The notes under the pieces are model-generated. The model was not told the origin of the DNA and searched no databases. It was given only the letters and a program-made list of their open reading frames with translations. A DNA stretch of 64,000 bases from Anaerolineae bacterium (GTDB lineage: Bacteria; Chloroflexota; Anaerolineae; Aggregatilineales; Phototrophicaceae). Location: assembly GCA_013360465.1 (NCBI GenBank), contig JABWBO010000002.1, positions 1 to 64,000 of the forward strand, written 5' to 3'. The position numbers and the translations under genes are program-made. Below, piece by piece: positions 9,452 to 28,093 of this stretch (position 1 is its first letter; the number at the start of each line of letters is the position of its first letter).

Positions 9452-10252
9452 ATGACCCGTATGAGGCGGTTTGGCGTTTCCTTATTCGCCACAGCGGCGG
9501 TACTGCTCATCCTGTTCGCACCGCTGCTGTCTTCGGTTGATCCGCTGGAGGTCAACACTGACGATCAACTCGCTCCGCCAGGGCTGGCACATCCATTCGG
9601 CACGGACCTGCTGGGGCGGGACGTACTCGGTCGATTTCTGCACGGAGGTCAGCGAACTTTGGCGACGGCAACCGCTTCAGTCGCGCTGGCAGCGTGCTGT
9701 GCGCTGATTCTGCGTCTCGCCGCGCTCGCTGCGAGTAGGCACGGGCTAGGCGACGATCTGCTGAACATCGCTACCCAGGCGCTGCTTGCGGTTCCTGGAC
9801 TGGCTCTGGCGCTCACAGCCACCACCGTCGTCGGGCGCGGAGATACGGCTGTCGTGGTCGCCGCCGGGATCACCCAGATCGCGCCGCTGCTGCGGACCGC
9901 GTATGCCGCCGAGCAACAGGCGCGACTCACGGCGTATGTAGAAGCGGCGCGAAGTCTTGGGGCGAGTCCTGCTCACATCTGGCGCTGGCACATTGCCCCG
10001 GCGATGCTTCCCGTCACAGCCGCAGGACTCGGCAATGCCTTTGCTCAAACTATCCTTGTGACATCAACCCTGGGTTTTCTGGGGTTTGGCGGTGAAATCA
10101 GCGCGCCAGAGTGGGGAAGAATGCTCTACGAAGGACGCCAGGTCCTGCGCGTCGCGCCCTGGGTCTCTCTAGCGCCCGCATTCGGCATCACCATACTCAT
10201 ATACTTTATGAATCACCTGCTGCGACGGCTGGCGGTTAATCCAGCCGAATAA
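9452..10252 (+). CDS. ABC transporter permease, DppC type
   Basis: The 266-aa partner permease carries an N-terminal helix, the conserved PFGTDLLGRDVLGR segment (HPFGTD at about residue 48) and the EAA loop YVEAARSLGASPAHIWRWH, followed by the LGFLGFG and PEWGRML motifs typical of DppC. The ATG at 9452 lies 2 bp after the DppB-type gene. The 3' end overlaps the convergent isopentenyl phosphate kinase gene by 17 nt. A complete importer would need two ATPases (or one shared), which are not encoded within this window beside it. Confidence 0.93.
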   Translation: MTRMRRFGVSLFATAAVLLILFAPLLSSVDPLEVNTDDQLAPPGLAHPFGTDLLGRDVLGRFLHGGQRTLATATASVALAACCALILRLAALAASRHGLGDDLLNIATQALLAVPGLALALTATTVVGRGDTAVVVAAGITQIAPLLRTAYAAEQQARLTAYVEAARSLGASPAHIWRWHIAPAMLPVTAAGLGNAFAQTILVTSTLGFLGFGGEISAPEWGRMLYEGRQVLRVAPWVSLAPAFGITILIYFMNHLLRRLAVNPAE

Positions 10253-11027
10253 GGGTGCCATGCGCTTCGCGCCCAGTCAGTACGGCAGCGATCTGCGCAG
10301 GGTTCCCGCCCATGATACGGATCGACAGACGCGGCACAGTGGAGACAAGATTCAGCATGTGGCGCACTTTTGCCGCCATGCCGCCGGTCACATCTGTCCC
10401 GGCGGAACCTCCAAGTGCTGCCTCGATTTGTGGCAGTAAGGCGGGGGTAATCACCGGGATGATCGCACCAGTTTGATCGAACACGCCATCAACATCGCCC
10501 AGCAGGAGAATTTCGTCGACGGGGAGATGACGCGCAAGATAGAAGAAGACGGTTTCGGTCGAGATAATCGTGCCGCCACGCTGGTCATCCAGGCTTACAT
10601 CCCCATAGACGAGCGGGACAAGCTGGTGTTCGAGCGCAGCGCGAATAGGCTGGAGCGCCATGTCGACAATTTCGCCGCCAGTGCTGCGTGCCGAAGCAGA
10701 CGGCTGGATTCGCCATACGGGCATCCCCTGGGCGCGCAACGTAGCGCTGACCAAACCATTGAGTTCAGCAGCGGCAGCAGCTACATGGGCAAAACCTCGC
10801 CAATCCTCCAACGAACACACCCCCTGCATGGTGCCGTAGCGCTGCGCGGCGACATGCCCGAAGGAGCCGCTACCATGTCCAATCAAGAGACGGATCATGG
10901 GATCGTCGTCCAGCGCTGTACGTAATACTGAGCCGACAGATGCGACCGCCGATCCATGATAGGTGTTGGCAACCTGCTTGTTGGTGATTAAAGAGCCGCC
11001 GAGTTTGATGAACAGAAGGCGGGTCAT
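10236..11027 (-). CDS. ipk: Isopentenyl phosphate kinase
   Basis: This 263-aa kinase of the amino-acid kinase superfamily would convert isopentenyl phosphate plus ATP to isopentenyl diphosphate. The N-terminal KLGGSLITNK and the HGSGSFGH motif are typical; His58 aligns with the catalytic His of archaeal IPK. Later motifs GDVDGVF and TDVTGGMAAK complete the nucleotide and substrate sites. Its start overlaps the mevalonate kinase stop by 4 nt (ATGA), so the two are co-translated. With the divergent decarboxylase it forms an alternative mevalonate route. A gamma-glutamyl or acetylglutamate kinase assignment is unlikely because of the His motif and context. Confidence 0.9.
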   Translation of the reverse strand: MTRLLFIKLGGSLITNKQVANTYHGSAVASVGSVLRTALDDDPMIRLLIGHGSGSFGHVAAQRYGTMQGVCSLEDWRGFAHVAAAAAELNGLVSATLRAQGMPVWRIQPSASARSTGGEIVDMALQPIRAALEHQLVPLVYGDVSLDDQRGGTIISTETVFFYLARHLPVDEILLLGDVDGVFDQTGAIIPVITPALLPQIEAALGGSAGTDVTGGMAAKVRHMLNLVSTVPRLSIRIMGGNPAQIAAVLTGREAHGTLIRLD

Positions 11028-11953
11028 GTGATCTCCGTAGCGATAACACGCGCTGCCCCCGCATGGTGGAGAGAAGCGGCAATTTGCTCGGTGGTGTGCG
11101 GTTCTACGAGGGCGATCATGATCCCGCCTCGTCCCCCGCCCGACATCTTTGCACCTGACGCGCCGGCGCGAAGGGCTGCATCCACCAGGCGATCCAGTTC
11201 CGGGGATGATACCGTCAATTTGCGGAGTAGCTGATGATTCTCGATCATCAGCGCGCCGAGCTGATCTGGCGTTCCTTGCTCGATGTGACTACGGGCAGCA
11301 GCAACGATTCTGCGTACGGTCTCGAAATGCGCTGTTACCTCCTGAGGGTCTTGCTTTAGCAAACCCCAGACTCCCGATACTGCGTCACGGGTCAGAGATG
11401 GACGTCCGGTATCGCCAATCAGAAGGTGGATCGGCGCGCCGACTCTGAGGGGCATCGGTTCCTGTCCGCGAACGAAGTAAACTGGTTTCTCGTAGACGAT
11501 CACCGTGTTGTCGATACCGCTGGGCGTCCCGTGATGAAGTCTCTCGACTTCGTAGACCAGTCGATTGAGTGTTTCGCTATCCATGGGCGCATTGAGGGCA
11601 GCGCAAAGTGCGCGAGCGACCGCAGCAGAAACCGCCGCGCCGCTGCCCATACCGCTGGCGATCGGTATATCGGAATGAACGTGGATTGCGAGGTTTGGCA
11701 TCCCACAGCTCACCTCTCGCAGCACCAGATGAACAATTTTCGTCAGAGCATTGTCCACTTCGGCAGCGCCCAAACCAACCGGCAGCGACTCTGCGAAGCC
11801 CGGGGCGTGAAGACGAACACCTTCGCCAACACCCGGAACCGCCTCGGCGTAGGCACGAAGCGACGACACGGGAGCGGCGAGCGCCGGAACCCCGTGTACC
11901 ACAGCGTGTTCGCCAAAGAGGATAACCTTTGCCGGAGCGCTGCCCAACGCCAT
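11024..11953 (-). CDS. mvk: Mevalonate kinase (GHMP family)
   Basis: The 309-aa GHMP kinase phosphorylates mevalonate to mevalonate 5-phosphate. Motif 1 reads APAKVILFGEHAVVHG from residue 6 of the chosen start. The glycine-rich ATP loop is GMGSGAAVSAAVARAL, and the C-terminal motif is KMSGGGRGG. The ATG at 11953 gives the canonical short N-terminus; upstream in-frame codons run into the divergent promoter region. It overlaps ipk by 4 nt. A minus-strand TATAAT at 11993-11998 may be its -10 box, with a poor -35. Galactokinase and phosphomevalonate kinase are less likely because the GEHAVVHG form is typical of mevalonate kinase. Confidence 0.92.
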   Translation of the reverse strand: MALGSAPAKVILFGEHAVVHGVPALAAPVSSLRAYAEAVPGVGEGVRLHAPGFAESLPVGLGAAEVDNALTKIVHLVLREVSCGMPNLAIHVHSDIPIASGMGSGAAVSAAVARALCAALNAPMDSETLNRLVYEVERLHHGTPSGIDNTVIVYEKPVYFVRGQEPMPLRVGAPIHLLIGDTGRPSLTRDAVSGVWGLLKQDPQEVTAHFETVRRIVAAARSHIEQGTPDQLGALMIENHQLLRKLTVSSPELDRLVDAALRAGASGAKMSGGGRGGIMIALVEPHTTEQIAASLHHAGAARVIATEIT

Positions 11954-12066
11954 GATAGTGAAAGCCTTCTCTGTGCAGCGTGTACTCCGGGGATTATATC
12001 GATGACAGCGCATCCTGTATACTGAAGGGGTTCGCAAACGATGAGTCAGAAGAGGCACAAAGATCT

Positions 12067-13050
12067 ATGGCGGTAGGCACTGCACACGCTCAGGCACACC
12101 CAAACATTGCGCTGATCAAGTATTGGGGTAACCGAGACGAACGTCTGCGCCTTCCTGCGAACTCCTCGCTAAGCTTCAACCTCAGCGGTCTTCAGACTAC
12201 AACTCAAGTCACCTGGATCGAAGACAAGTCCGGAGATAGCCTGATCCTAAATGGCAGGGAAGCCCGCACAGATGAGCTGTCACGTGTCATTCGACATCTG
12301 GACATGCTACGCAGCCACCTTGGCATTCGCGGATATGCGCACGTGGAGTCGGGGAATAATTTTCCAACCGGAACAGGTATCGCATCCTCAGCATCCGCGT
12401 TTGCGGCACTGACTGCGGCGGCGACCAGCGCGGCAGGACTTCACCTTGATGAGCGAACTCTCACGACTCTCGCTCGGCTGGGATCGGGTTCGGCGGCACG
12501 TTCCATTCCCGCCGGGTTTGTGGAATGGCATGCCTCAGATGCGCACGAGGACTCCTATGCGGAAAGCATCGCGCCAGCCGATCATTGGACGCTGATTGAC
12601 GTGATCGCCATTGTCAGTACGAGCCATAAGGCGGTCGGATCGACAGCGGGACATGCCTCCGCTGCGACAAGCGACCTGCAGAACGCGCGAGTCGCGGGAG
12701 CGGAACGTCGGCTGACACAGTGCAGGAGTGCGGTGCTGACGCGCGACTTCGCGGCGCTGGCTGAAGTTGTCGAAGAAGACAGTAATTTAATGCACGCTGT
12801 CATGATGACGAGTCGTCCTCCGCTGTTCTACTGGCTGCCAGCCACGCTGGCGATCATGGCGGCTGTGCGGCGTTGGCGTACAGAAGGGCTGCAGGTGTGT
12901 TACACGCTTGACGCCGGACCCAATATACACTGCATTTGTGGTCCGGAAGCTGCTGCCGAAGTAAGGAATCGCCTGCAATCCATCTCTGGTGTAGTGGATA
13001 TTCGCTCTGCTCCACCTGGGGGTGGAGTGACGATAGAACGCCTCGCATAA
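12067..13050 (+). CDS. mvaD: Mevalonate-phosphate decarboxylase (MDD-like, probably monophosphate-specific)
   Basis: The 327-aa GHMP-fold protein belongs to the diphosphomevalonate decarboxylase family. It shows PNIALIKYWG (12-21), the ATP loop GTGIASSASAFAAL, the GSGSAARS motif with the expected catalytic Arg145, and Asp282 in LDAGPN, the expected catalytic Asp. The usual KYWGK motif reads KYWGN, so the second Lys, which lies at the substrate phosphate end in this family, is Asn22. Because ipk and mvk are adjacent and no phosphomevalonate kinase is seen, I infer decarboxylation of mevalonate 5-phosphate to isopentenyl phosphate. Classical diphosphomevalonate decarboxylase remains possible. 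The ATG at 12067 begins the conserved part. Confidence 0.85.
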   Translation: MAVGTAHAQAHPNIALIKYWGNRDERLRLPANSSLSFNLSGLQTTTQVTWIEDKSGDSLILNGREARTDELSRVIRHLDMLRSHLGIRGYAHVESGNNFPTGTGIASSASAFAALTAAATSAAGLHLDERTLTTLARLGSGSAARSIPAGFVEWHASDAHEDSYAESIAPADHWTLIDVIAIVSTSHKAVGSTAGHASAATSDLQNARVAGAERRLTQCRSAVLTRDFAALAEVVEEDSNLMHAVMMTSRPPLFYWLPATLAIMAAVRRWRTEGLQVCYTLDAGPNIHCICGPEAAAEVRNRLQSISGVVDIRSAPPGGGVTIERLA

Positions 13051-25737: not shown

Positions 25738-26739
25738 TCACTGATCCAGAACATCCTGGAGCATCTGGTATGTTGGTGAACAATCCATAAAGGCATAACG
25801 TACAGGAGACACTGTTGTCTGGACACCTCCTACAGCGCGAAGGTAATCCACAGCAGGCAGCAAATCACGATTGGAAATAATCAGCGTGACGGTATACCAC
25901 CACGGATCGCTTCCGTAAATCGGGGCAATCGTGGGTCCCTGTAGCCCTCGCGTAACGGGGTTCTGCATAATACGCTGCGCAATGACTTCGGCGCTCTCTC
26001 CCCGAATATTGCAGGTAAGCTGAATGTAGCGTTTCCCTTGCAGTGCAGCATCAACATATTCCAAGAGTAACCGCGTAACATCACGCTGTGCTGTTGAGTT
26101 CTTGAGCGCGGCATGATTCCCAATCAGACAAGCCTGTGACTCGAGGAGGGTCCCGTCGTCCAGAGGTTTTAAGTGATTCTCACGGAGGGTCGTTCCGGTC
26201 TGTGTGAGGTCAATAATGACATCCGCATAGCCAATAGTCGGCGCCGCCTCGATCGCTCCTTCGGCATTGACCAGCGAAAACTGGTGAATGCCATGCTCGT
26301 AAAGGAACTTGCGAGCGAGGCGAGTGAATTTTGTCGCGACACGGAGGTTGCGCCCGTGCTGTTCACGCATGTCGTGTGCAACCTCTGCCAGATCAATTAC
26401 GCTGGTCACATCAATCCAGGACTCGGGCACAGCTACTATGAGTTTGCACTGCCCATAATGGAGATCATCATGAATAACGACGACCTCATTAAAGGGCTGC
26501 TCTTTCACAACATCCAGTCCGGTGATCCCTAGTTGGGCAGTGCCATCTGCCACCTTATAGAGAACATCGTTTACCCGCTGGAACAGTACAGCAATTGACG
26601 GCAGCGCACTTATGACGCCCGTATACTGACGCGGATTTGGTTTGTCCACCCGAAGTCCACAGTCTGCCAGAAAACCGAGTGTCGGATCAGCAAGCGCGCC
26701 CTTGCTCGGCAGCGCCAGGGTCACAGTGTCAATCGTCAT
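25738..26739 (-). CDS. hisG: ATP phosphoribosyltransferase, long form (HisG with regulatory domain)
   Basis: The 333-aa enzyme joins ATP and PRPP, the first step of histidine synthesis. The phosphoribosyltransferase part begins LALPSKGAL and includes DLTQTGTTLRENHL, the PRPP-binding loop region. After about residue 235 there is a C-terminal extension (KRYIQLTCNIRG through PIYGSDPWW to VGGVQTTV) that matches the ACT-like histidine-binding domain of the long HisG form. The ATG at 26739 gives the canonical N-terminus. It overlaps hisZ by 11 nt. A long HisG should not need HisZ, which makes the pair notable. Confidence 0.92.
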   Translation of the reverse strand: MTIDTVTLALPSKGALADPTLGFLADCGLRVDKPNPRQYTGVISALPSIAVLFQRVNDVLYKVADGTAQLGITGLDVVKEQPFNEVVVIHDDLHYGQCKLIVAVPESWIDVTSVIDLAEVAHDMREQHGRNLRVATKFTRLARKFLYEHGIHQFSLVNAEGAIEAAPTIGYADVIIDLTQTGTTLRENHLKPLDDGTLLESQACLIGNHAALKNSTAQRDVTRLLLEYVDAALQGKRYIQLTCNIRGESAEVIAQRIMQNPVTRGLQGPTIAPIYGSDPWWYTVTLIISNRDLLPAVDYLRAVGGVQTTVSPVRYAFMDCSPTYQMLQDVLDQ

Positions 26740-28093
26740 GAAGCTGTCCTTCTTCGGCAAGTTCGAGTACATCCGCCAATCTTGCCATGGAATACTTCTC
26801 ACCTTTGCATCGCAGCGTACCATCACCTTCGGCAATGACGCCGGGCATCCGCGCATCTCCAGCAGTACGTTCTTTGAAGATCACGGAACAGCCCGCTGCG
26901 CGCATTTCCGATGCCCACCATACAGCCGTCTTCGCAGAATCTTCGTCGAGCCAAAGCGTGACCGGATTGGTGCTTGATCCGTCTGCAAGGGCGGATTGGC
27001 GGATAATGTTTTCCATATAGAACGCAATCCCCACAGCCGGAGCATGCACGCCTCCCAGCAGGCGTGCCAGTTCGTTGTACCGTCCGCCGCCGGCAATGAG
27101 TCCTCCTGTCATACCGCGAAACTCAAATACGATGTCGGTGTAGTAGTTCCAGTCCCGCGCAAGCAAGGGATGAACTTCAATTTGTTGGGGTGACTGATCA
27201 TAGGATTTCACCAATTCGATCAGGGATTCGATCTGATCAAGCGCTCGATGAGCGGTCGCCTGATGGTCTAAAAGACCAGCGCGAACCACTTGAGGAGCAT
27301 TCGGGTTCGACCTATCAATCTCCTGCAGGTACTCAAGCTGATCGAGAGCCTGAACAACCTGTCCTCGAAGCGCTGCACGCTCCGATTTTCGCTTGAGTCG
27401 CCTGAGAATATCCTCGCGCGATCTTCCAGCAAATGATGTCTCAGACTCTAGAAGCGCCGTTAGTTCGCCGCTGTTTTTCTGGACGAAATCGCTTTCGATG
27501 CTCCGGATCGCTGACAGCTTATCGAAGCGTTCCAGAACAAACGCTTTTCCGTCAGTTGTGAGATGGTGAAGATGATCTAGCACGAATTGTGCAGTTCGGG
27601 GATCAAGTTCATAAGATTCGAGCAGCCCGCGCAGGAATTGGACGCTTCCTATCGCCAGTCGGATGTCGTTACATCCTGCTGCATGTAGCCCGGCGCAGCC
27701 AAGCACAATAACCTCGGCGTCGGCAAGCCAGCTTCCCCAACCGATAAGCTCTGCGCCGACACTATATCGCTGATAGACGTCCGCCGAGTCCAGCGAGTCT
27801 TCGAAAACGCTGCCAGCGAACTGCCACCTTGCAATGGACGCCATCCCTGGTGACTGCATCTCCGCATAGGCTTTGGCTGCTGTGGCAGTGAATTCGGGAC
27901 GGAGTGCCAACTGCCGTCCGAAGCGCTCAAAGGTGAAGAGCCGTTGAATAAACTGATCGCCGGCTTTCGTCAGAAACAGATCGGCCGGCTGAAGTATCTG
28001 TGTCTCCAGCCGTTGGTAACCGAATCGGTCGATCTCCGCCTGCACCGCTTCAATCAGGCGAAACATTTGTACTTGAGAGTTGATGTACGGCAC
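26729..28093 (-). CDS. hisZ: HisZ-like regulatory subunit (histidyl-tRNA synthetase paralogue)
   Basis: The 454-aa protein resembles the class II core of histidyl-tRNA synthetase. It has GYQRLETQILQPADLFL, ALRPEFTA (motif 2 region) and a GGGRYNEL loop near motif 3. The HisRS signatures are altered: the LVRGLDYYTG-type loop reads LLARDWNYYTD. That points to a HisZ rather than an active synthetase. The N-terminus is short, starting at GTG 28093 with AGAGG nine bases upstream and an in-frame stop just before. A C-terminal domain of about 90 residues may be a remnant of the anticodon-binding domain. It overlaps hisG by 11 nt. Confidence 0.8.
   Translation of the reverse strand: MPYINSQVQMFRLIEAVQAEIDRFGYQRLETQILQPADLFLTKAGDQFIQRLFTFERFGRQLALRPEFTATAAKAYAEMQSPGMASIARWQFAGSVFEDSLDSADVYQRYSVGAELIGWGSWLADAEVIVLGCAGLHAAGCNDIRLAIGSVQFLRGLLESYELDPRTAQFVLDHLHHLTTDGKAFVLERFDKLSAIRSIESDFVQKNSGELTALLESETSFAGRSREDILRRLKRKSERAALRGQVVQALDQLEYLQEIDRSNPNAPQVVRAGLLDHQATAHRALDQIESLIELVKSYDQSPQQIEVHPLLARDWNYYTDIVFEFRGMTGGLIAGGGRYNELARLLGGVHAPAVGIAFYMENIIRQSALADGSSTNPVTLWLDEDSAKTAVWWASEMRAAGCSVIFKERTAGDARMPGVIAEGDGTLRCKGEKYSMARLADVLELAEEGQLHDD

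Follow-up and report, generated by a model that had tools for sequence, protein, structure and literature searches.

Downstream of a mevalonate kinase, two kinds of decarboxylase are known, one acting on mevalonate 5-phosphate and the other on its diphosphate, and the locus described here raises the question of which substrate its decarboxylase uses. The locus lies in the first 64,000 nucleotides (hereafter the window) of contig JABWBO010000002.1 of the Anaerolineae bacterium assembly GCA_013360465.1. We put a probability of about 95% on the reading that the locus serves an Anaerolineae-like bacterium in a mevalonate pathway of the alternative form (haloarchaea/Chloroflexota type), in which the decarboxylase acts on mevalonate 5-phosphate and isopentenyl phosphate kinase (IPK) follows. 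Gene content, active-site residues, co-occurrence in genomes and homology to a solved enzyme with bound mevalonate 5-phosphate carry this reading.

Organization of the locus

The genes and the region between them are as follows:

10236-11027, minus strand: IPK, 263 amino acids; NF040647 158.2 bits, cut-off 120
11024-11953, minus strand: mevalonate kinase, ATG start at 11953; TIGR00549 238.5 bits, cut-off 163
11954-12066, no strand: intergenic region between the divergent genes, 113 bp, from the sequence
12067-13050, plus strand: predicted mevalonate 5-phosphate decarboxylase, Anaerolinea type, 327 amino acids; PF22700 and PF18376

All three genes exceed curated family cut-offs, and the arrangement described in the first-pass annotation, with the two kinase genes divergent from a decarboxylase like mevalonate diphosphate decarboxylase (MDD), was found as described. 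The mevalonate kinase gene overlaps the start of the IPK gene by 4 bp. In the mechanical list of open reading frames, longer GTG-started frames of the mevalonate kinase and the decarboxylase overlap each other, while the ATG starts leave the 113-bp gap, and in an alignment the ATG at 12067 is in line with the start of a solved homologue of 61% identity. The gap holds a single promoter-like match (minus strand, 12021-11993), which is no more than chance predicts, and the idea of regulatory signals between the divergent genes was dropped on that ground. The upstream neighbour of the cluster is a peptide-type ABC transporter, and a PDZ-containing site-2 protease of family M50 and a HEAT-repeat protein lie 3′ of the decarboxylase.

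The IPK resembles the solved IPKs 3ll9 and 3k4o. Aligned with the invariant set of Dellas et al. (2013; PMC3857490), it has 11 of the 11 residues, namely the catalytic His58 together with K8, G10, G11, K17, G52, P138, G142, D212, T214 and G215. The mevalonate kinase scores just 35 bits with the phosphomevalonate kinase (PMK) model, for which the cut-off is 165.7.

The divergent layout recurs in 17 other loci (16 named loci and genome G240, the other member of the window's family), and in 17 of 17 a gene that by sequence resemblance would encode a UbiA-like prenyltransferase lies between the mevalonate kinase and the decarboxylase (around 6930-8000 in L041-L053, L056, L057 and L059; 7502-8425 in L185). 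The window has no UbiA-like gene at this place; a copy of 64% identity is found on contig C145 of the genome. Elsewhere in the window, at 25738-28093, a protein like histidyl-tRNA synthetase, possibly HisZ, adjoins a HisG that carries a C-terminal domain. A HisG extended in this way is usually of the long form, which works without HisZ.

Residues and closest relatives of the decarboxylase

With the start at ATG 12067, residues 18-22 of the decarboxylase read KYWGN, so that Asn22 stands where the first-pass annotation had seen the second lysine of KYWGK replaced; the catalytic Arg145 and Asp282, said there to be kept, are both present, as are Arg28 and His196. Among proteins of solved structure 6n0x/6n0y comes closest to it (318 residues aligned at 61% identity, E 4.9e-115). 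PMC9254496 describes 6n0x as the Anaerolinea thermophila phosphomevalonate decarboxylase (PMD; AthPMD) with bound mevalonate 5-phosphate, and reports, citing Thomas et al. (2019, ACS Chem Biol 14:1767), that PMD specificity was changed by mutagenesis into DMD specificity, that of the classical enzyme. According to the PDB sequences the wild-type AthPMD (6n0x/6n0y) also has KYWGN, and 6n0z is a variant with KYWGK (Asn to Lys) and with His changed to Met at window position 196. As position 22 is changed in 6n0z and the wild type carries KYWGN, the earlier suggestion that Asn in place of Lys fits a loss of diphosphate recognition has already been tested in the closest relative, and it agrees with the published Anaerolinea work.

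When the two proteins are compared, the window decarboxylase and AthPMD share KYWGN, Arg at 28, His at 196 and the catalytic Arg and Asp, and differ by ordinary sequence divergence only. By its close homology to this solved, mevalonate-5-phosphate-bound enzyme the window decarboxylase would be of the same kind, and we infer that it prefers the monophosphate. Asn22, Arg28 and His196 would together replace the Lys/Ile/Met set of classical MDD at the phosphate end of the substrate, and would go with monophosphate recognition.

Classical bacterial MDDs (Staphylococcus aureus 2hk2 and Enterococcus 5v2l) have the same fold family, the catalytic Arg and Asp and two serines at 140 and 142, but they are 38-40% identical to the window enzyme and have Lys at 22, Ile at 28 and Met at 196. 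Where a classical MDD would have Lys in KYWGK and a PMK in the same genome, we find Asn22 and no PMK.

The first-pass annotation referred to Roseiflexus and haloarchaea. The pathway it described, from mevalonate 5-phosphate to isopentenyl phosphate and on through IPK, stands, but Roseiflexus is not the right model: its subtype has Leu at 22 and falls in a clade apart, so that Anaerolinea serves as the closest model. The mevalonate phosphate decarboxylase of Roseiflexus castenholzii (residue signature in Dellas et al., 2013; PMC3857490) is like the window enzyme in its proposed reaction, its IPK pathway and the Arg at the position of Arg28. It differs in having Leu in place of the window's Asn22, Ala in place of Ser140 and Thr in place of Ser192. 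Of the signature Leu22, Arg28, Ala140 and Thr192, then, only Arg28 is shared. A Roseiflexus-like group of Chloroflexota sequences matches that signature in our alignment, with KYHGL, Ala140 and Thr at 192; its members score about 125-163 bits, those of the window's group about 320-507. In a quick tree with two classical sequences only, the two groups form separate clades. The alignment of the KYWGK position across types, proposed at the first pass, thus gives Asn22 as a rule in the Anaerolinea type, Leu (KYHGL) in the Roseiflexus type and Lys in the classical enzymes.

Pathway genes in the whole genome

The genome comprises 5.9 Mb in 256 contigs and is 97% complete. It contains five genes with a GHMP N-terminal domain, encoding the mevalonate kinase, the decarboxylase, a homoserine kinase, a homoserine-kinase-like protein and a galactokinase. 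Neither this census nor the PMK model revealed a PMK, whether in the window or elsewhere in the genome at its 97% completeness. This bears out on the genome scale its reported absence from the sequence, and a hidden PMK was rejected on this basis.

HMG-CoA reductase and an archaeal-type HMG-CoA synthase (TIGR00748) adjoin each other on contig C154; a search with PF01154 had suggested that the synthase was absent, and the TIGR00748 match beside the reductase overturned this. The contig that holds the window also encodes a type-2 isopentenyl diphosphate (IPP) isomerase (IDI-2), about 15 kb past the window. Dxr was not found in the genome, and a MEP pathway operating alongside was rejected on that account. 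The genome has both the upper pathway and the alternative lower one, together with the isomerase, and lacks the other known routes.

The flux in the cell would then run as follows. Mevalonate kinase would form mevalonate 5-phosphate; the decarboxylase would use ATP to phosphorylate its 3-hydroxyl, after which phosphate and CO2 would be eliminated to give isopentenyl phosphate; IPK would add the second phosphate to give IPP; and the type-2 isomerase would convert IPP into DMAPP.

Distribution among Chloroflexota

A member of the decarboxylase family was found in 88 of 400 Chloroflexota genomes. IPK exceeded its cut-off in all 80 family-bearing genomes tested and PMK in none of them. No control genome passed the cut-off of the PMK model either, so that the model is a weak detector alone and the GHMP census is the stronger test.

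We aligned 170 Chloroflexota family hits, taken from family-bearing genomes and 80 further named Chloroflexota loci (174 rows in all). None of the 170 has Lys at position 22, which is confined to the two classical reference sequences, and the commonest set, Asn22/Arg28/His196, occurs in 108 of the 174 rows. Asn22 is the rule in the window's clade and no peculiarity of this genome.

Other sets of residues occur as well. One subclade within the Anaerolinea type combines Met at 196 with Leu, Met or Phe at 22 in place of His and Asn (L022, L025, L030, L063, L093, L104 and L109); the catalytic Arg is present in all of them, and the three from whole genomes (L022, L025 and L030) have IPK and no PMK. 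We considered co-variation of positions 22 and 196 as a sign of repeated switching and rejected it, as the Chloroflexota Met196 sequences cluster on the tree and leave too few independent pairs. It is possible, at somewhat less than even odds, that monophosphate specificity has been built in more than one way in Chloroflexota decarboxylases, and that position 22 need only be something other than Lys. The sets would then be Asn22/Arg28/His196 (window and Anaerolinea), Leu22/Arg28/Ala140/Thr192 (Roseiflexus type), Gln22/Thr28, and Met196 with Leu, Met or Phe22. They may be separate losses or may descend from a PMD ancestor, the quick tree with its two classical sequences being compatible with both.

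Four genomes (L141-L144; two of family f25 and one of f61, where KYHGL is usual) carry a KYWGV or KYWGM decarboxylase of the window's group, which suggests gene replacement by transfer. In L132 a second piece of the decarboxylase family (G192:C46:52402-53021) lies at a contig end with both strands read over about 600 bases, and looks like an inverted-repeat assembly artefact.

Alternative readings

The decarboxylase could instead be a classical MDD whose partner PMK was missed. The equivalog model for the diphosphate enzyme, TIGR01240, gives it 250.7 bits (cut-off 171), and a genome that is 97% complete leaves some room for a missing gene. Against this stand the five GHMP genes with no PMK among them, the 80 related genomes that all have IPK and show no PMK above cut-off, the lack of Lys22 in any of the 170 Chloroflexota hits, and a closest solved homologue that is a PMD. 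We therefore consider a classical MDD very unlikely. A Thermoplasma-type 3-kinase, which would phosphorylate the 3-hydroxyl of mevalonate or mevalonate 5-phosphate without decarboxylation, seems to us more improbable still. Thermoplasma-type kinases do belong to the same superfamily as the decarboxylases. However, the models for the 3-kinase and the bisphosphate decarboxylase, which have cut-offs of 440 and 560, give only about 38 bits, and the catalytic Asp282 is present, the absence of this Asp being tied to loss of decarboxylation in PMC9254496. The same paper has IPK as the last enzyme of the archaeal route as well, in which phosphomevalonate dehydratase (AcnX) would feed IPK and the decarboxylase would do something else. 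There is next to no chance of this here, as the genome holds only a partial AcnX match of 20.4 bits (cut-off 31.5), the frame of which is about as large as an ordinary protein of the aconitase family, and the decarboxylase is full-length with catalytic Arg145 and Asp282.

We favor the reading in which a mevalonate 5-phosphate decarboxylase and IPK work without PMK, as first proposed from the sequence, and support for it now comes from the genome as a whole, from 80 related genomes and from the solved homologue of 61% identity. The enzyme itself is ordinary, its type being known and characterised structurally, and the first interpretation was right in substance and already known.

Implications for annotation and for the family

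On the family model alone the window decarboxylase would be called a diphosphomevalonate decarboxylase. The NCBI phosphomevalonate decarboxylase model, NF040704, gives it 182.7 bits, far below the cut-off of 475. This miss and the TIGR01240 pass both go back to the training of the models, which used haloarchaeal and classical sequences. Automatic annotation of 12067-13050 probably gives the wrong substrate, with NF040704 below its cut-off and the diphosphomevalonate model above. We point out that this is a problem for Anaerolinea-type enzymes as a class: the NCBI model that they pass names them diphosphomevalonate decarboxylase, and the NCBI phosphomevalonate decarboxylase model misses them altogether. 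Beyond annotation, the finding of IPK in all 80 family-bearing genomes and of PMK above cut-off in none confirms the alternative pathway as the rule in mevalonate-using Chloroflexota.
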